Source: Thalassotalea sp. LPB0316 (GTDB lineage Bacteria > Pseudomonadota > Gammaproteobacteria > Enterobacterales > Alteromonadaceae). Taken from it: a DNA stretch of 64,000 nucleotides. The first letter of the stretch is position 1, and every line of letters begins with the position of its first letter. The stretch spans positions 1,426,001-1,490,000 of the forward strand of contig NZ_CP062946.1 of assembly GCF_014898095.1 (NCBI RefSeq), read 5' to 3'. The position numbers and the translations under genes were made by a program. The notes under the pieces are model-generated. The model saw only the letters and a list, made by a program, of their open reading frames with translations. It was not told the origin of the DNA and did no database searches. Positions 4,369 through 44,770 of this stretch are shown here, one piece after another.

Positions 4369-5203
4369 TATAAAATCTCGCCTATTAATAAATCGAGCAT
4401 TCACATGCTCTGCTTGACACATTTATTATTATTTTTGACGACGGAAGTCACTCAGCTTGCAAGGCGAGGTCATTATCTGCACTTGCAAATGCTACTGTAA
4501 TCTTTACTTGCTAGCTATTAGCCAACGAAAAAACTCAGTAGACACCTTGTTAACATCACTGGTTTTGGTAACCGTTTTTACTCGTTACCACCTCAGCTAC
4601 CGTGCCTGAAACAGTTATATCGTTACTGCTGACATTGTTTCGGCCAGGAGTACTTACAATGTAAGTTTACGGGTGTCAGTCACTCTTAACTAATGCCTAA
4701 CTAAAGTCAATGACATGGCCTGAGTACGCGAAAAAAACAGTGTTTATTTTATCGATAAAAGGTGGTTTTTTTATCGCCAATAGCGTTTTGCGGTTTTTGC
4801 CCATTACACCGCTATATGTCAGATGAATTAAGGGGTGTAGAAAAGTGTAGGTTTGTTAGTTGTGAAAAATGTAAAGATTTCAGGAAAATCTTTACATATC
4901 ATTAACTTGGGATTTTGTCAACATTGTTTTACGGCACTTGATTTAGCGAGGTAAGTAGTAGATTTTGATGGAAACTTATTGATTTAGCAGGCTAAAATTT
5001 ATCGGTTTGACTGGTTTGAATATAGGCTTTCGCCGTGTTTTAGCTCTTTTGCTTGATATCTCTGGCTGTTTTCGACGTTAATTCGATAACAAATACGTTG
5101 TTTAGATAAACCAAACGACAATTGCATTATTCGATTATCGCCAAAACAGCCTTACCCTTGACGTATTAAAAGCCAATAGTAGCCGCAACAATCAAGCAAT
5201 TTC
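4369..5203. other. Gene-free stretch with clustered hairpins upstream of the subtilase
   Basis: No convincing ORF on either strand. The part nearest the subtilase (4560-4690) is rich in self-complementary segments: GGTAAC/GTTACC (4567-4572 with 4584-4589), CTGACA/TGTCAG (4629-4634 with 4674-4679), and nested within the latter ACTTAC/GTAAGT (4652-4657 with 4661-4666). If transcribed with the protease gene this would be a structured 5' leader of some 300 bases. I could not match it to a known riboswitch. The rest (4740-5203) is AT-rich with nothing I recognise. Confidence 0.35.
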
Positions 5204-28414: not shown

Positions 28415-31107
<2,693 letters not shown>

Positions 31108-38490: not shown

Positions 38491-38751
38491 TTATTTTTTG
38501 TAAGTCGATACCATGTTGTCGACTTTGGCATTGGCTTCTTTTGCCGCCATTTGAGCATCTTTTGCCATCATTTTGGCATCGTTGATCGCACTTGCGTTAG
38601 CGTCAACTTTTTTCTCAAGCGCACTTACTTGGTTAGAAAGGTTGTCTACTTTGTTTGTTAGTTGATCCACTTTTGCCTCTAACGCACTAGTGTTTGAACA
38701 ACCCGCCATTAACACGACGATTCCCGCTACAGCAATGTTTCGTTTTAACAT
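38491..38751 (-). CDS. lpp: Braun-type major outer-membrane lipoprotein Lpp
   Basis: 86-residue lipoprotein. Signal peptide with lipobox LMAGCSN (acylated Cys near residue 18), then a heptad-repeat helix (LEAKVDQLTNKVDNLSNQVS and Ala-rich continuation MMAKDAQMAAKEANAKVDNM), and a C-terminal TYKK whose final Lys can be joined to diaminopimelate. That matches the E. coli Lpp design of trimeric coiled coil anchored in the outer membrane and tied to the wall. The L,D-transpeptidase gene next door is the expected attachment enzyme. Confidence 0.93.
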   Translation of the reverse strand: MLKRNIAVAGIVVLMAGCSNTSALEAKVDQLTNKVDNLSNQVSALEKKVDANASAINDAKMMAKDAQMAAKEANAKVDNMVSTYKK

Positions 38752-38837: not shown

Positions 38838-39164
38838 TTAAGCGTTATCAATCACGTGCTTAATTAATTCTTCCATCAGCTTTTTCTTGATTTCAAGTTG
38901 TTCACTCGGTGAAATATCGTATTTCTCACCGAGTACCTGATAATCATCTGCACTTAAGCTTACCGTCAGGCGAGGGCGCTTGGGGCGACGGTTAATCGGT
39001 AAACCGAGTATATGGCGGATTTGATCTGAAGGACTCAAGCCCTGAGTCAATGCCTCTTGACGGATGGCGAGTTGAATTTTCTCATCCATATCAAATGCAA
39101 CTTGGGTCGCTTTTGCGGCTTTTAATGATGACTGCCACTTCTCAGGTACTTTGCGGTTGCTCAT
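38838..39164 (-). CDS. Small basic protein at the end of the yjf cluster
   Basis: Not recognised by family name. 108 residues, no signal or membrane segment. N-terminal half: MSNRKVPEKWQSSLKAAKAT, then FDMDEKIQLAIRQEALTQGLSPSDQIRHILGL, which looks like a ribbon-helix-helix-like or CopG-type region. Basic middle (NRRPKRPRLTVSLSADDYQV) and an acidic/Lys-rich helix at the end. Its start is 2 bases after the yjfK stop, so it is cotranscribed with the PspA-like operon. A DNA-binding regulator of the cluster is a plausible but unproven reading: two RHH-like segments, each a beta strand followed by two helices, can be drawn. Confidence 0.75.
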   Translation of the reverse strand: MSNRKVPEKWQSSLKAAKATQVAFDMDEKIQLAIRQEALTQGLSPSDQIRHILGLPINRRPKRPRLTVSLSADDYQVLGEKYDISPSEQLEIKKKLMEELIKHVIDNA

Positions 39165-39166
39165 GA

Positions 39167-39802
39167 TTAACTTCCCGGGAACATGTCTTTGATATCGCTA
39201 ACAGGTCTAAACAAGGTAAGAAACACATCGGTGTCGCCATCTTGCCACACTTCTATATCTACCCCTTTACTTTCATCGTCGTTGTACAAAGAGTATTGTT
39301 CAAACTGTTCGCCGGCATCTTTTCCTTCATAAGATGAAAGCGCTTGGCTGCGATGATCTTTGCGATGAAAGTAGCCGATTTGAGCGAAAGCTTGACGATG
39401 GTAGTGTTCGTCTAACCACCGGCCAAGTGTTGGGTCTTTTTCTACGGTAGTTAATTCGCACGGTGCTTCGTCAAAAATCAAAGCAAATTGGTCTAAATCA
39501 AATACCCTAGCAACATCATCACGCTCTATTTCGTAGGAAAACTTGATGTACTTGCTGTCATCAACGTCGAGTGTTAAATAGATTTTCTCACCACTTGTAC
39601 CCATTAATACCCATTCGGTATTGGTGTGGTGTTCAAATTCATAACTGTTGATCTCAATGACTTCAAGTTGCTGTTTTCGCAGTTGCTCTGGTAGGGCAAA
39701 GCTATCGCTTAGTACGATAATGTCTTTGATTTGGAGTTGGTCAACTTGGGTAAGTTGGCGAGCAGGTTTATCGTCGCTAAATAATTTTTTAAAAAAACTC
39801 AT
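39167..39802 (-). CDS. yjfK: DUF2491 protein YjfK
   Basis: 211-residue cytoplasmic protein of the YjfK family (DUF2491), regularly encoded next to PspA-like yjfJ; molecular function unknown. It starts MSFFKKLFSDDKPARQL, resembling the amphipathic start of YjfJ, and has the family LTLDVDDSKYIKFSYEIERD and FEQYSLYNDDESKGVDIEVW segments. No catalytic motif is visible. It lies 53 bases after yjfJ, with a strong hairpin in between, and 2 bases before the small basic gene. Confidence 0.88.
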   Translation of the reverse strand: MSFFKKLFSDDKPARQLTQVDQLQIKDIIVLSDSFALPEQLRKQQLEVIEINSYEFEHHTNTEWVLMGTSGEKIYLTLDVDDSKYIKFSYEIERDDVARVFDLDQFALIFDEAPCELTTVEKDPTLGRWLDEHYHRQAFAQIGYFHRKDHRSQALSSYEGKDAGEQFEQYSLYNDDESKGVDIEVWQDGDTDVFLTLFRPVSDIKDMFPGS

Positions 39803-39818
39803 TGTGTACCTACTAAAA

Positions 39819-39840
39819 CGCCAGCGTATTCACGCTGGCG
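39819..39840 (-). other. Intercistronic hairpin between yjfJ and yjfK
   Basis: Nine-bp perfect GC-rich stem (39819-39827 with 39832-39840) with a four-base loop, followed on the minus strand by only TTTTAG. It may act as a partial terminator or mRNA processing/stability site giving more YjfJ than YjfK. Confidence 0.65.
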
Positions 39841-39855
39841 GTATCAGGTTTAGAT

Positions 39856-40545
39856 TTACTTTTGCTTGGCTTTTAAACGCTCTAATACAGAGTTTGCGTT
39901 GTTGTCTTGTGCGCCAATACCTGCTGCTTTTAGTTTAGCTTCTAGTGAGTTATCAGAGGTTTCTGACTCTAATACTTCTGCAGCTTTTAACTGATCATCA
40001 AACTTTTGTTGCTTAGCTTTGATACGCTCAAGTGAGTCTTTCGCGTTAAGTAGCTTCGAGTTTGACGAAGAAAAGTTATCGGTAATCGCTGACGTCGCCT
40101 TTTGTACACTTTCAGTTGTTTTAACCATAGATAACTGACGCTTGTACTCAGTGATTTGACGTTCAGACTTTTTCACTAACTCTTTTAAACGCACGGCGTT
40201 TGTTTCAAAGCTTTCAAGCGATTGCTGATTGGTGCTTAATTCGCTCTCTAAGCTGGCAATTTTTTCTGCCACTTCAAGGGCTAAGGCTTCATTGCCTTGT
40301 TCAAGCGCTTGCGTTGCGTAACCTTCGTGTTCTGCAATATCGCGTTTGATGCGATCAACTTCACGTGACGCTGACATTTGTTGTGCCATTACACCAGTTA
40401 AATCGCGCTTGGCCTTGGTTAAGTGGTTTTCGGCATCGCGAATTTCTTGTTCAAAAATACGGGTAGAATTAGCGTCAACAATGGCTTCGCCAACCTCAGT
40501 TGCTCCACCACGTACAGCGGTCATAATCTTTTTAAAAATGCTCAT
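39856..40545 (-). CDS. yjfJ: PspA/IM30 family protein YjfJ
   Basis: ESCRT-III-like membrane-repair protein. 229 residues, almost wholly helical. The N-terminal amphipathic helix MSIFKKIMTAVRGGATEVGE binds damaged membrane, followed by the long coiled-coil hairpin with FEQEIRDAENHLTKAKRDLT (the PspA signature region) and helices to about 185. There is an extra C-terminal segment (SLEAKLKAAGIGAQ...VLERLKAKQK) characteristic of the YjfJ branch. It lies between yjfI and yjfK in a close-packed operon. No pspBC or pspF is seen, so control probably differs from the E. coli psp system. Confidence 0.92.
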   Translation of the reverse strand: MSIFKKIMTAVRGGATEVGEAIVDANSTRIFEQEIRDAENHLTKAKRDLTGVMAQQMSASREVDRIKRDIAEHEGYATQALEQGNEALALEVAEKIASLESELSTNQQSLESFETNAVRLKELVKKSERQITEYKRQLSMVKTTESVQKATSAITDNFSSSNSKLLNAKDSLERIKAKQQKFDDQLKAAEVLESETSDNSLEAKLKAAGIGAQDNNANSVLERLKAKQK

Positions 40546-40565: not shown

Positions 40566-40979
40566 TTAAACGAGGTATTCACTCATATCATCGATAACTT
40601 CTAAGGCGTTGTTACTCAGTACTGCGAGTTCATGCTCAATGTCGTGGAATGATGAGCTCATCGACAACGCACCAAAAATAACGTATTTGTCACCAATCTT
40701 AGAAAATGAAGACAGCGGCATTGGGATATTCATTTCCAACATACTCGTGTGCATATCTGCTTGGCTGCCTGGTTTAACTTCATCTTCACCCCAAAGGTAA
40801 GTGATGCATAAAATTTGATCGTCGGTTACCGAAACAAAGATCGGTAGCTCTTCACGACCAATAACAGAGATTTGTAACACATCTACTTCGCCGGCAATTG
40901 GCTGGCAATCAAAAACTAATCCTGTATCTGAATTGTCAGCTAGCGTGTTTAGATGGTCTGCTATCTTATGAATATTCAT
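40566..40979 (-). CDS. yjfI: DUF2170 protein YjfI
   Basis: Cytoplasmic protein of about 137 residues of the YjfI family, always near PspA-like yjfJ; no biochemical role established. The ATG at 40979 is chosen because AGGAAAAAC stands directly before it; an ATG at 40991 has no ribosome-binding site. Family features: LVFDCQPIAGEVDVLQISVIGREELPIFVS, MLEMNIPMPLSSFSKIGDKYVIFGALS (core LPSSFSKI-like). First gene of the yjfIJK unit, starting about 65 bases downstream of the predicted promoter with its two palindromes. Confidence 0.88.
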   Translation of the reverse strand: MNIHKIADHLNTLADNSDTGLVFDCQPIAGEVDVLQISVIGREELPIFVSVTDDQILCITYLWGEDEVKPGSQADMHTSMLEMNIPMPLSSFSKIGDKYVIFGALSMSSSFHDIEHELAVLSNNALEVIDDMSEYLV

Positions 40980-41027
40980 GTTTTTCCTCATGTAATAAGA
41001 AGCTCATTGGTAACCCAATAGTGTTTA

Positions 41028-41084
41028 AGACATATTATGTCTCGGTGTCAAATGTAGCACTTAGACATATTATGTCAAGCGTTA
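41028..41084 (-). promoter_or_regulatory. yjfI promoter with two copies of a 13-bp palindrome
   Basis: Two exact copies of GACATATTATGTC (41029-41041, extended to 15 bp by flanking A/T, and 41064-41076), 35 bp centre to centre. On the minus strand the upper copy overlaps a perfect -35 TTGACA (41078 down to 41073). After a 16-base spacer comes TACATT as -10 (41056 down to 41051), and the lower copy lies at the expected start point. This is the layout of a repressor-controlled promoter. The regulator is unknown. Confidence 0.65.
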
Positions 41085-41093
41085 GTTTCAACT

Positions 41094-42800
41094 TTATTGT
41101 AAATGAGCGTTGTTTAATCCTTGTTGGCTTTGCCACGCTTGTTGGTGGAGCTGATAAATTACATGGCTCCCCAAATAGTTAACTGGAATATCGTCTTTAT
41201 CTTGGTAGAAGTTTTGCGGAAATTCAAAGGCCGATAACACTAAATTTTTTGTTAGCCATAAATGATTGTTGGGTAGTTGCGGCAATGCAGCTAGCCTCTG
41301 ATAAGGAGATGCGCCCGATTTTGCGGCAATCGTCCAACCCCACTCACCAAAGCTTGGTACATTGTCATGGTATTGCTCAACATGTAAAAAGCCAGCCGCT
41401 TCAACGGTATTGCCTATGGCTATAAAGGCATTTTTTGCGTGATATGGGCTAGTTGATTGAATGGCGAGTAGGCCATCACCTGATAACAACTGGTTGATCC
41501 GAGCGTAGAAATTGACACTGTAGAGTTTGTTTAAATCAGGGTGGCTAGGGTCGGGTAAGTCTATGATTATGGCGTCGTAATAACGCTGTTGTTTGAGCAG
41601 TTCGTCGATGGCCAAAAAGGCATCTGCTGCAATCACTTCAACGCGTTGGTCGGCAAAACTGTCTTGGGTTAGCGCCTGGATTTGGCCTGCTAGCTTTTTC
41701 GGTAAATGTTGTTCTGGCTGGCGAAAAAGCGACATTAGTTTTTCATCGAGATCAATCAAGGTGACTTGCTTTGGTTGCCAGCGCAAAACATCGCGAAGGG
41801 CCAAACCATCACCGCCACCGATGATCAAAATGTTATCTTGGCGGGCTGAGCCTGCTAGAGCGGGCTCAACTAAATAGCCGTGATAGATAAATTCATCAGA
41901 TGAAGAGAATTGCAAACGACCATTCAAGTAAAAATTAATCACGGTATCTTGATTATGGCCTAGTCTGCGCTCAGTAAAGGTGAGCTGTTGATAACGGGTT
42001 TTATCCGAATAAACGACTTTATCGAGGTAGAGTAAATTACTCATTTGGTTTAGCCATTGATTGCCGTAGTTAAAAACCACTAATACCAACAGTGACAACA
42101 AGATATGACCAGATAGCAGCAGTGTTTTGTGTTTTATCATTGCCCAATAGCGCGACATAAACATTAAGCCGGCAAGTAAGTTGATACTTGCAGTAATTGC
42201 AGCGGCTTCATTGATATCGATAGTCAGTAATACCGTTACCCAAATTGCAGCACCTATGCCCGCGCCAATGTAATCGGCACCATACATAGTGCCAAGGTTA
42301 TTAGCTAAGTGTTTTTGGTGGACAATTTCTCGAACGCGGGCAATTAACGGGATTTCCATACCAATGAAAAAACCGAGTAAAAAGCCAAAGAAATAGGGAG
42401 ATTTCATGGCTAACCAGTTCAGACTTTTTAACCAACCGCCTTTCGGCATCGCATCAGGTGGCAGGGCAAAGGTTTCAGCGATGATGTGAGGCAATAATTG
42501 GCTAATCGCAATCAGCCCTCCGATGGTGAGAATGGCCGTAGTGCCTAAAAAAGCAATAATCAGTTCGAGGTAGAGAAAGCCGTTAAAGGCGCATTTGACG
42601 AATCGCGCGGCGAAAGCGCCAACCCCCATGGCAACGATCATCAAGCCGATCATGGTGTAGATGGTACTTTCCATCACACCAAGCACGCGACCGGCATAAT
42701 GGGATAACAAATACTCATAAATTAGACCACAGCCGGCAAGCAGAGCCATGGTCAAAATGAGTAAGCTATCGTCCCAAAAAAACTTTTTGGTATCAGACAT
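41094..42800 (-). CDS. Membrane-anchored spermidine synthase-like protein
   Basis: 568 residues in two parts. The first about 230 residues hold seven to eight hydrophobic helices (ILTMALLAGCGLIYEYLLSH, IYTMIGLMIVAMGVGAFAAR and others). The C-terminal half is an aminopropyltransferase/spermidine synthase Rossmann domain: ILIIGGGDGLALRDVLRW for the nucleoside cofactor, VTLIDLDEKLMSLF, and the catalytic DLPDPSHPDLNKLYS. Such fusions are annotated polyamine aminopropyltransferases; substrate is unproven and could be a polyamine or a membrane-bound amine. It starts 21 bases after the DUF350 gene. The PspA/DUF350/polyamine-enzyme association recurs in bacterial genomes (established gene-neighbourhood knowledge). 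Confidence 0.9.
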   Translation of the reverse strand: MSDTKKFFWDDSLLILTMALLAGCGLIYEYLLSHYAGRVLGVMESTIYTMIGLMIVAMGVGAFAARFVKCAFNGFLYLELIIAFLGTTAILTIGGLIAISQLLPHIIAETFALPPDAMPKGGWLKSLNWLAMKSPYFFGFLLGFFIGMEIPLIARVREIVHQKHLANNLGTMYGADYIGAGIGAAIWVTVLLTIDINEAAAITASINLLAGLMFMSRYWAMIKHKTLLLSGHILLSLLVLVVFNYGNQWLNQMSNLLYLDKVVYSDKTRYQQLTFTERRLGHNQDTVINFYLNGRLQFSSSDEFIYHGYLVEPALAGSARQDNILIIGGGDGLALRDVLRWQPKQVTLIDLDEKLMSLFRQPEQHLPKKLAGQIQALTQDSFADQRVEVIAADAFLAIDELLKQQRYYDAIIIDLPDPSHPDLNKLYSVNFYARINQLLSGDGLLAIQSTSPYHAKNAFIAIGNTVEAAGFLHVEQYHDNVPSFGEWGWTIAAKSGASPYQRLAALPQLPNNHLWLTKNLVLSAFEFPQNFYQDKDDIPVNYLGSHVIYQLHQQAWQSQQGLNNAHLQ

Positions 42801-42821
42801 AACAAATTGGCAGGCGGCGAA

Positions 42822-43724
42822 CTAGGCCATAAGTGCTGTTAAAATTAGCGCAATTGAGATACTAATTGCCATTTCAACACAAGCAACACCAATATTGTGT
42901 TGTTGATCGACCTCTTCGATTAAGTTAATACCAAACAAGACCAGTTTTTTCGCTATGGTTGTCAGGATTGACACGGTAATGGTTAACGCGATGCCAAAAA
43001 TTAACCAACCTAATAGGTTCGGTAAAATTGCATATTCGTTGTAACTAAAGAAGTGGCTTGCCGCGGTTACCGCAAGTGCTGTACTAATGACTTGGCCAGC
43101 GTAACGAATGGCAATCGCTATTTGGCCATTGGCTAAAGCTTCTTGCATGCAGTCTGCTTGATTGTGCTTTGCGTAGTGACGTTCTTTTATTCGAGTAACA
43201 ATAACTAACATCGCTTGCGAAACAATAAAACCTGACAGTATGGCGATAAAGGTATAGACAGTTAAACCGTGTACCCATAGTAGGACTGCGCGAATGACAA
43301 TGGCGGTAGCCACTACGCCAGCGGCATCGACGATACCCACACTAATGTTTTTGTTGAGGATTTGTTGGGTTTTATCAATGTGCTGGAGGGCGAATTTATC
43401 ATGGATAACACGGCCAATTTTTATTAACACGATACCAAAAATACCGTAGCTCAACATACCAATTGCTTCCCATAAATAGCTATCAGCGGCTTCACCAGTG
43501 ATCGCGCCGGTAAGCACTAAGCCCAAGGCAAGAAAACTACCTGCGACGCTAATACCGAAAGCAAAATTATCCTGTTTAGATAATTCATCCGTGGTATTTA
43601 CATTGGCAGACAAGCCTGAGATAAATCGCATTGCACCGAGTAGAAGGATGGCAATCGACACATCAATTGCTAGGTATATTAAAAGCTCTTGGCTTACTGC
43701 ACTAAATTCGATAAAGCTGTTCAT
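42822..43724 (-). CDS. DUF350 membrane protein (YjfL-like, duplicated)
   Basis: 300-residue inner-membrane protein with about eight hydrophobic helices in two DUF350 repeats. Each repeat carries a helix-start motif with charged residues: DELSKQDNFAFGISVAGSFLA near residue 45 and EEVDQQHNIGVACVEMAISI near 265. E. coli YjfL is a single-unit homologue of about 130 residues, so this is a fused double version. Function is unknown; the family keeps company with PspA and polyamine or glutathionylspermidine enzymes. It follows the lipoprotein gene by 8 bases and precedes the aminopropyltransferase gene by 21. Confidence 0.88.
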   Translation of the reverse strand: MNSFIEFSAVSQELLIYLAIDVSIAILLLGAMRFISGLSANVNTTDELSKQDNFAFGISVAGSFLALGLVLTGAITGEAADSYLWEAIGMLSYGIFGIVLIKIGRVIHDKFALQHIDKTQQILNKNISVGIVDAAGVVATAIVIRAVLLWVHGLTVYTFIAILSGFIVSQAMLVIVTRIKERHYAKHNQADCMQEALANGQIAIAIRYAGQVISTALAVTAASHFFSYNEYAILPNLLGWLIFGIALTITVSILTTIAKKLVLFGINLIEEVDQQHNIGVACVEMAISISIALILTALMA

Positions 43725-43732
43725 TGTTCTTC

Positions 43733-44695
43733 CTATTTGCCTCGTCTCGTGCCACGAGAAGTATTTGTTCTGCTATTTCTAAAGCTTGCGTTTTTCTTGT
43801 TGCTGCTCGCGTATGCACTTTTGTTAGTGGTCGTTTTTTGAAAGCGATTCGCGTTAGTTTGTGCTGCTTTACTCTTTTGTGAAATACTCGAGGCACCGGT
43901 GCGATTTTTGGCATATGCGCTGGTGTATTTCTGCCCCTTACTTTCAAAAGATTTACGTGTTCTATTATCAAGGTTGACTTGTTTTCGCAAACTACTTGGC
44001 GAGCTATAACGCGTGCGACCGTAGTCGCTGTAATAGCTGTAATTTCGGTAGCGTCCCCAATCGCTATAGTAAACTCTTCTAGAGCCAAAAAGATTATCCA
44101 TCAGGGCGTACATACCGTACCATTCCCAAAACGATAAGCCATTACTACCTGTTTGCCATTGACCGTAATTCGGGTTACCAATCAGCTGTTCACCGACACC
44201 GAAATCTTGCGCGCCATTAGCTTGCATGCTCTGCGCTTTTGATAAAGCGTTGACGCGCGGTAACATGCCGTCAGACATGTCAGCTAAAACATTGAGTGGA
44301 TCGCTCAATGCATCGGAAAATAAAATGGGATCCGCAGCTTGATAAATATTGAGTAATTCTTGATAGCGCTCTTCCTTGGTGCTAAATAATTGGGGCATGT
44401 TTTGTGCTTGGTCAAACCTATCCATCAACCCTTTATACATGGGGCCGGTAGGCGTAGCATCACGGGCAATCACTTTAACGATATCGGCAAGCTCAGGCTT
44501 TGCCGCTGTTACTTTTTGCGCGTATTGATTGATCAATGCGGCGTTAGTGACCTGGCCTGAAGTCAACGCTTGACTAAGCGCCTCTATTCGGCTTTTGGTT
44601 ATCGGGATTTGCTGCTCTATTTGTTGCGCCACGGGGTCTGAGCAGGCGCTAAGCAAGAACACAAATAAAAAACTAAGAACCTTAATCGGTTGCAT
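43733..44695 (-). CDS. Lipoprotein with basic Ser/Asn/Thr-rich tail, unknown
   Basis: About 320 residues, not recognised. The ATG at 44695 starts a lipoprotein signal (MQPIKVLSFLFVFLLSACSD, lipid Cys near 19); a further-upstream ATG at 44734 is less likely. The first two-thirds are helical and acidic (KSRIEALSQALTSGQVTNAA and IVKVIARDATPTGPMYKGLMDRFD). Next is a Trp/Tyr-rich segment (YGQWQTGSNGLSFWEWYGMY and WGRYRNYSYYSDYGRTRY). The last about 85 residues are strongly basic and low-complexity, ending RTNTSRGTRRGK. Asp before position +2 suggests inner-membrane retention by the E. coli rule. First gene of its operon, divergent from glnE, under the same palindrome as yjfI. Confidence 0.8.
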   Translation of the reverse strand: MQPIKVLSFLFVFLLSACSDPVAQQIEQQIPITKSRIEALSQALTSGQVTNAALINQYAQKVTAAKPELADIVKVIARDATPTGPMYKGLMDRFDQAQNMPQLFSTKEERYQELLNIYQAADPILFSDALSDPLNVLADMSDGMLPRVNALSKAQSMQANGAQDFGVGEQLIGNPNYGQWQTGSNGLSFWEWYGMYALMDNLFGSRRVYYSDWGRYRNYSYYSDYGRTRYSSPSSLRKQVNLDNRTRKSFESKGQKYTSAYAKNRTGASSISQKSKAAQTNANRFQKTTTNKSAYASSNKKNASFRNSRTNTSRGTRRGK

Positions 44696-44736
44696 TTTTG
44701 TCTCGGCTCCTTCAAAAATGCCAATATAATTCATCT

Positions 44737-44770
44737 TTTTAGCACTTGTGACATAATATGTCTAACGTTA
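44737..44770 (-). promoter_or_regulatory. Lipoprotein-operon promoter with third copy of the palindrome
   Basis: GACATAATATGTC at 44750-44762, the reverse complement of the yjfI copies. The surrounding block (44740-44770) matches the yjfI block (41055-41084): both contain TAGCACTT, then the palindrome, then a CGTTA. On the minus strand TAGACA (44764 down to 44759), a 17-base spacer and TAAAAA could be -35/-10. It may also affect the divergent glnE. Confidence 0.6.

Follow-up and report, generated by a model that had tools for sequence, protein, structure and literature searches.

A 13-letter palindrome as the probable operator of a tandem ribbon-helix-helix repressor in a PspA–YjfI gene cluster of Thalassotalea

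In a 64,000-nucleotide window of the genome of Thalassotalea sp. LPB0316 (contig NZ_CP062946.1, positions 1,426,001 to 1,490,000), a cluster of genes for a PspA/IM30 family protein, YjfI, a DUF350 protein and an aminopropyltransferase carries at both of its promoters a 13-letter palindrome, GACATAWTATGTC. We propose that this palindrome is the operator of a repressor with two ribbon-helix-helix (RHH) units per chain, encoded within the same cluster (38838..39164, minus strand), and that the repressor controls a regulon of membrane-stress genes. We consider this reading, in which binding, repression and the inducing signal are deduced from sequence, to be quite probable. An earlier sequence-only reading of the window had suggested that one repressor or activator controls both halves of the cluster. 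The idea of shared control stands, but its frame was too narrow: the palindrome marks sites across the whole genome, and the regulator now has a candidate.

Results and discussion

The palindrome in the window and in the genome

Exact copies of GACATAWTATGTC were found at 41029-41041, 41064-41076 and 44750-44762, precisely as reported earlier, with no fourth perfect copy in the window and, when up to two mismatches were allowed, a single further match at 29537. Under a first-order Markov model fitted to the window, 0.0019 perfect copies were expected per 64 kb, or 0.10 when scaled to the 3.55-Mb genome, in which eight copies were observed. In both the window and the genome, the count is far above chance. 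The reversed pattern, used as a control, did not occur anywhere in the genome, and a search for one-mismatch copies returned the same eight places and no imperfect copy.

All eight copies are intergenic rather than scattered through coding sequence. Three belong to the window, two of them before yjfI and one before an operon for a lipoprotein, the DUF350 protein and the aminopropyltransferase; the other five precede a second pspA (L009:7234-7896, above the cut-off of TIGR02977), a gene for a small secreted protein, nfeD-SPFH, a YqiJ-type gene and nhaA. On one side of the nfeD site is nfeD, 258 bases away, and on the other a divergent gene, 169 bases away; the nhaA site is likewise flanked by nhaA, at 41 bases, and by a divergent Lrp gene. 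Because both sites lie between divergent genes, the assignment of these two targets rests on relatives. The gene divergent from nhaA is of the Lrp/AsnC type (L012:7948-8418), and the same arrangement, with the palindrome in between, recurs in L050, L058, L065 and L202.

Promoter architecture and its conservation

The yjfI promoter (41051..41078, minus strand) looks sigma-70-like: TTGACA at 41078-41073 is followed by a 16-base spacer, TGC and then TACATT at 41056-41051, forming an extended −10 element (TGC-TACATT). It was the best of 19 promoter-like sites returned by a consensus scan, a total not clearly greater than the shuffled mean of 14.0 (standard deviation 4.2). Operator 1 (GACATATTATGTC, 41064..41076) overlaps the −35 box by four bases, whereas operator 2 (41029..41041), 35 bases from operator 1, starts three bases past the start point inferred at 41044. 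The sequence-only reading had placed one copy on TTGACA and the other at the start point, which agrees with this geometry.

For the lipoprotein operon, alignment with relatives pointed to a promoter (44736..44764, minus strand) composed of TAGACA at 44764-44759, 17 bases, TGC and TAAAAA at 44741-44736 (extended −10 element TGC-TAAAAA), with a putative start point at 44729. The third copy (44750..44762) overlaps this proposed −35 box, as had been anticipated for a −35-like element. The consensus scan did not list this promoter and gave instead a nearby pair, GTCACA at 44752 plus TATATT. Common to the yjfI and lipoprotein sites is a block made up of the palindrome, four or five bases, and TGnTA. 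A scan of the three upstream regions for GG-N10-GC found none, although the positive control, the classical pspF-pspA spacer of this genome, likewise went undetected.

Alignment of the 108-residue RHH protein yielded 302 loci from named genomes, of which the best 80, mostly from Colwellia and Thalassotalea, were kept. A perfect pair of palindromes was present upstream of yjfI in 80/80 of these loci, spaced by 35 (23 loci), 36 (52), 37 (4) or 39 bases (1), and located within 200 bases of the predicted yjfI start in 78 loci and at 200-350 bases in L149 and L185. Upstream of the lipoprotein gene, a perfect copy was found in 74 of the 80 loci, the six without being L141, L165, L185, L188, L191 and L192. 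One-mismatch copies numbered just three in the 1.56 Mb covered by the 80 loci, and these were in L141, L185 and L188, all among those lacking the perfect lipoprotein-gene copy.

The promoters themselves were equally well kept when spacers were picked by best fit among 15-19 bases. All 80 yjfI promoters had TTGACA over site 1, a spacer of 16 and a TG before the −10 element, which read TAAATT in 70 of them. At the 74 lipoprotein promoters with a perfect site, the −35 element was TAGACA in 68 and TGGACA in six, and 73 had TG at spacer 17. Non-scattered copies and conservation at both promoters together give good support to the idea of one regulator for both cluster halves.

Co-occurrence of the palindrome and the RHH gene

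A strong candidate for the regulator is the RHH protein, whose gene co-occurs with the palindrome. Among 40 genomes, including that of LPB0316, the RHH gene was found in 18 and the palindrome in 17, and the two sets agreed except for G033. A larger sample from the order, comprising 247 genomes with family labels and overlapping the set of 40, had the RHH gene in 77 genomes and the palindrome in 74, whereas the reversed pattern occurred once each in three. The palindrome was present in 60/60 RHH carriers outside family f11 (283 copies), as opposed to 13 of 170 non-carriers (17 copies); Fisher values for this association, and for that with DUF2170 below, are overstated, as members of the same genus do not count as independent genomes. 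Contrasts within families pointed the same way, G131 excepted. This non-carrier has four copies, and its yjfI contig ends at base 4394, about 0.9 kb past yjfI, where the RHH gene would be expected.

DUF2170 was detected in 106 genomes; the palindrome occurred in 61 of the 77 that have the RHH gene, and in just three (G122, G131 and G223) of the 29 without an RHH match, being absent from the other 26.

Carriers in family f6 had 4-9 palindrome copies each. This family is probably Shewanella, judging from a Shewanella protein (P0350) that shares 104/111 identical residues with the protein of G222 and 74-98 with nine other f6 proteins. Separately, one genome (G142, locus L245) was the sole RHH carrier among 18 sampled f7 genomes and also the only one to have the palindrome, as if the RHH gene and its operators had been transferred together.

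These distributions bear on two other explanations. The palindrome might act as a terminator or other RNA hairpin, serve as a site of recombination or methylation, or be a product of chance. Equal copy numbers in RHH-positive and RHH-negative genomes would have supported such a view; instead, copy number is bimodal and tracks this one gene. In RHH-carrying genomes, a crude test, in which spurious open reading frames (ORFs) count as well, placed only 6 of 318 sites (a set containing some genomes twice) inside a long ORF, whereas with G131 omitted 7 of the 13 copies in RHH-negative genomes were inside ORFs, as by chance. Operator 1 of yjfI, moreover, overlaps the −35 box and is hence upstream of the transcript. 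What speaks for such a role is the copy in RHH-negative G223, which looks like part of a terminator, and overall we regard it as very improbable. That copy (L196:5828), the only one in its genome, is inside an inverted repeat between runs of A and T.

The palindrome might also have a different reader, be it the Lrp/AsnC protein or a regulator encoded elsewhere; in favor of Lrp/AsnC is the position of the palindrome, with nhaA on one side and the Lrp gene on the other, in LPB0316 and the four relatives named above. In the set of 40 genomes, however, G014 has a close Lrp orthologue (E up to 1e-30) and no copies, whereas G020, G022, G024, G028, G034, G037, G038 and G039 have 2-10 copies and no close orthologue. 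As it does not track the palindrome, Lrp/AsnC was rejected. The case for YjfI, PspA or DUF4178 as the binder is weakened in a similar way, since for each of the three there are cases in which it goes undetected next to the RHH gene and the copies persist, although divergent forms may have been missed by the single tblastn query used for each. A binder other than the RHH protein thus seems to us rather improbable, if less so than a role other than operator.

The RHH protein

An AlphaFold2 model of the 108-residue protein (mean pLDDT 73.1) showed a strand-helix-helix arrangement twice, with strands at residues 20-23 and 67-70 and helices at 28-40, 45-53, 72-82 and 89-107. As modeled, the protein has in each half the strand and two helices of the RHH (MetJ/Arc) fold, and would be a tandem RHH protein; some of its relatives are labeled "Ribbon-helix-helix protein" in UniRef. 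Searches gave no Pfam match at E up to 10 and no sequence match in the PDB set, and Foldseek alone gave no clear structural match to the model. No sensor domain was visible.

A probable variant of the operator was encountered in family f11, whose 17 genomes, three of them assigned to Psychromonas, all carry the RHH gene yet, apart from one copy in G130, no GACATAWTATGTC. All 17 contain GACATTWAATGTC, which has a changed inner base pair relative to GACATAWTATGTC, in one copy (15 genomes) or two (2 genomes). This word was found in one of the 18 other genomes searched, and its reversed control in 7/35 genomes. In 17/17 f11 genomes, a copy of GACATTWAATGTC was just upstream of yjfI (e.g., L193:5271-5283) and was preceded by TTGACATATAATG, likewise in 17/17. 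The f11 RHH proteins read QIAFD (17/17), whereas the non-f11 loci have V or L at the residue concerned (104/104). We considered a link between this residue change and the f11 operator and discarded the idea, as P0326, an otherwise Colwellia-like protein, also reads QIAFD, the residue is probably in the protein core, and shared ancestry explains the data equally well.

Organization of the cluster

All genes of the cluster are on the minus strand. From the yjfI promoter, the order is yjfI (40566..40991; DUF2170, PF09938, E 4.8e-38), a pspA of the YjfJ type (39856..40545; PF04012, E 4.1e-43), the gene for a DUF4178-type protein (39167..39802), which had no Pfam match and was named by its operon position after Ravi et al. 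2024, and, fourth, the RHH gene, identified by alignments, AlphaFold and co-occurrence. An Lpp-like lipoprotein gene (38491-38751, minus strand) is found downstream of it. The second operon begins with the lipoprotein gene (43733..44695) and continues with the genes for the DUF350 membrane protein (42822..43724; PF03994) and a spermine/spermidine synthase-like protein (41094..42800; PF01564, and above the cut-off of NF002956, polyamine aminopropyltransferase) with an N-terminal membrane part, recognized by reading the sequence and from Ravi et al. We took 44695 as the lipoprotein start from the sequence, rather than the listed 44734, because the latter is at the inferred transcription start and a lipobox follows 44695.

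Proposed mechanism

We propose that one RHH chain folds as a pseudo-dimer that would read a GACATA half-site, so that two chains would cover the palindrome. The protein would occupy the −35 box of the yjfI promoter and a position just past its start point, and likewise the −35 box of the lipoprotein promoter. Thus bound, it would exclude RNA polymerase and repress its own cluster, as well as distant membrane-stress genes (the second pspA, NfeD-SPFH, the YqiJ type and NhaA) and, in relatives, those for HtpX, a YidC-like protein and others. Membrane stress would then lift the repression, perhaps through a cluster partner (YjfI, PspA or DUF4178); release through a partner is likely because the RHH protein has no visible sensor domain.

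The RHH protein might instead activate, or both activate and repress, as described for the RHH protein AmrZ (PMC3325190), and several targets have their site 100-300 bases before the start codon, a possible activator position. We prefer repression because the yjfI promoter, which is near consensus, has its −35 box covered by site 1 and its inferred start point followed by site 2, and because the nhaA and htpX sites are close to the start codon: by script, the site ended 27-56 bases before it in 10 of 13 loci, and in the remaining three the script took a start further inside the gene. Activation by the RHH protein, alone or combined with repression, therefore appears unlikely.

One feature of the cluster weighs against repression by the RHH protein as proposed. 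A terminator-like hairpin (39819-39840, minus strand; nine pairs, seven of them GC, then TTTT) in the spacer between pspA and the DUF4178 gene may keep transcription from the yjfI promoter from reaching the RHH gene. It may also lower RHH levels relative to PspA. By a crude test, a hairpin with a T-rich tail was present at this place in 47 of 78 relative loci, and is hence not general.

Predicted distant targets in relatives

In the relatives, profiles confirmed the identity of several kinds of predicted target, namely NfeD (L010, L054, L062, L072, L090 and L201), NhaA (L012, L058, L060 and L094), HtpX (G028, G034, G037, G038, G047 and G121) and SPFH proteins (L066 and L076). The YqiJ-type assignment had a profile match in L011 only, with none in L053. 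Small proteins with a signal-like start recurred, with the site 133-157 bases upstream. Six of them, of 89-111 residues and with the site at 135-157 bases (L009:8761-9030, L055:8001-8294, L061:7788-8078, L063:8733-9014, L203:5954-6289 and L207:5525-5827), were compared with Pfam, and none had a match. Single instances comprised a YidC-like protein (60KD_IMP), an ion channel, a DUF805 protein, a carbonic anhydrase, an M16 peptidase and an HlyD protein. In G034 and G038, some of the sites are found before genes that lack an obvious tie to the membrane, e.g., those for alpha/beta hydrolases.

A bolder reading is advanced here tentatively and with somewhat more doubt than belief. In marine Gammaproteobacteria, the single-chain tandem-RHH repressor may serve as a master switch for inner-membrane stress, acting in parallel to PspF through one 13-bp operator on the genes for two PspA proteins, NfeD-SPFH, the YqiJ-type protein, HtpX, NhaA and a YidC-like insertase, and being released by its own PspA/YjfI module.

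Comparison with known systems

Tandem or single-chain RHH proteins are familiar from conjugation (F TraY), from an archaeal virus (AvtR) and from protein engineering (permuted single-chain Arc).

An operon type combining CesT/Tir(YjfI) and PspA with a spermine-synthase-like membrane protein has been described, in which the last gene is sometimes an RHH factor (PMC11237479). The cluster falls in group 2 of Ravi et al., as PF09938, PF04012, PF01564 and PF03994 occur in it together, and the same genes (DUF2170, PspA, spermine-synthase-like, DUF350, lipoprotein and DUF4178) make up their operon. Section 19 of that paper names no operator and no regulon, whereas here two promoters with the palindrome are accompanied by distant targets. 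Our searches of the open-access literature showed no operator or regulon for the RHH gene, the gene itself being mentioned by Ravi et al. 2024; operator and regulon appear to be new.

In P. aeruginosa, the bac operon likewise unites a DUF2170 protein with a PspA homologue (PMC10948618). A sigma-54 site was proposed there, and the authors found no homologue of spermidine synthase within or near that operon; in the literature covered here, this site is the one proposal for the control of YjfI-type PspA systems (PMC10948618). The present analysis supplies a candidate regulator, a putative 13-bp operator, a promoter geometry and a list of predicted targets, and its probable carriers include Shewanella, with tractable strains. 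It also joins PspA, SPFH-NfeD, HtpX and NhaA in a single predicted stress response.

The classical Psp system (PspF, sigma-54 and pspABC) also places PspA in a membrane-stress gene set, but the regulator proposed here is an RHH protein and the yjfI promoter looks sigma-70-like. The sole PspF match above the cut-off (G000:C1:1711534-1712568) is about 245 kb from the window cluster and does not adjoin it. It sits beside another PspA (TIGR02977) and PspB (L284), in a 4-kb stretch with no palindrome, which fits the earlier suggestion of a control route different from classical psp. PspA-family genes thus number at least three in this genome: the one beside PspF, the second pspA and the YjfJ-type gene of the window, the last two with the palindrome upstream.

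The sigma-W system also brings PspA together with an SPFH protein under a common stress control (PMC8581546), though in a different phylum and through an alternative sigma factor instead of the DNA-binding protein proposed here. If the RHH protein does prove to be a master switch, it would represent a repressor-based Gram-negative counterpart of the sigma-W stress response.

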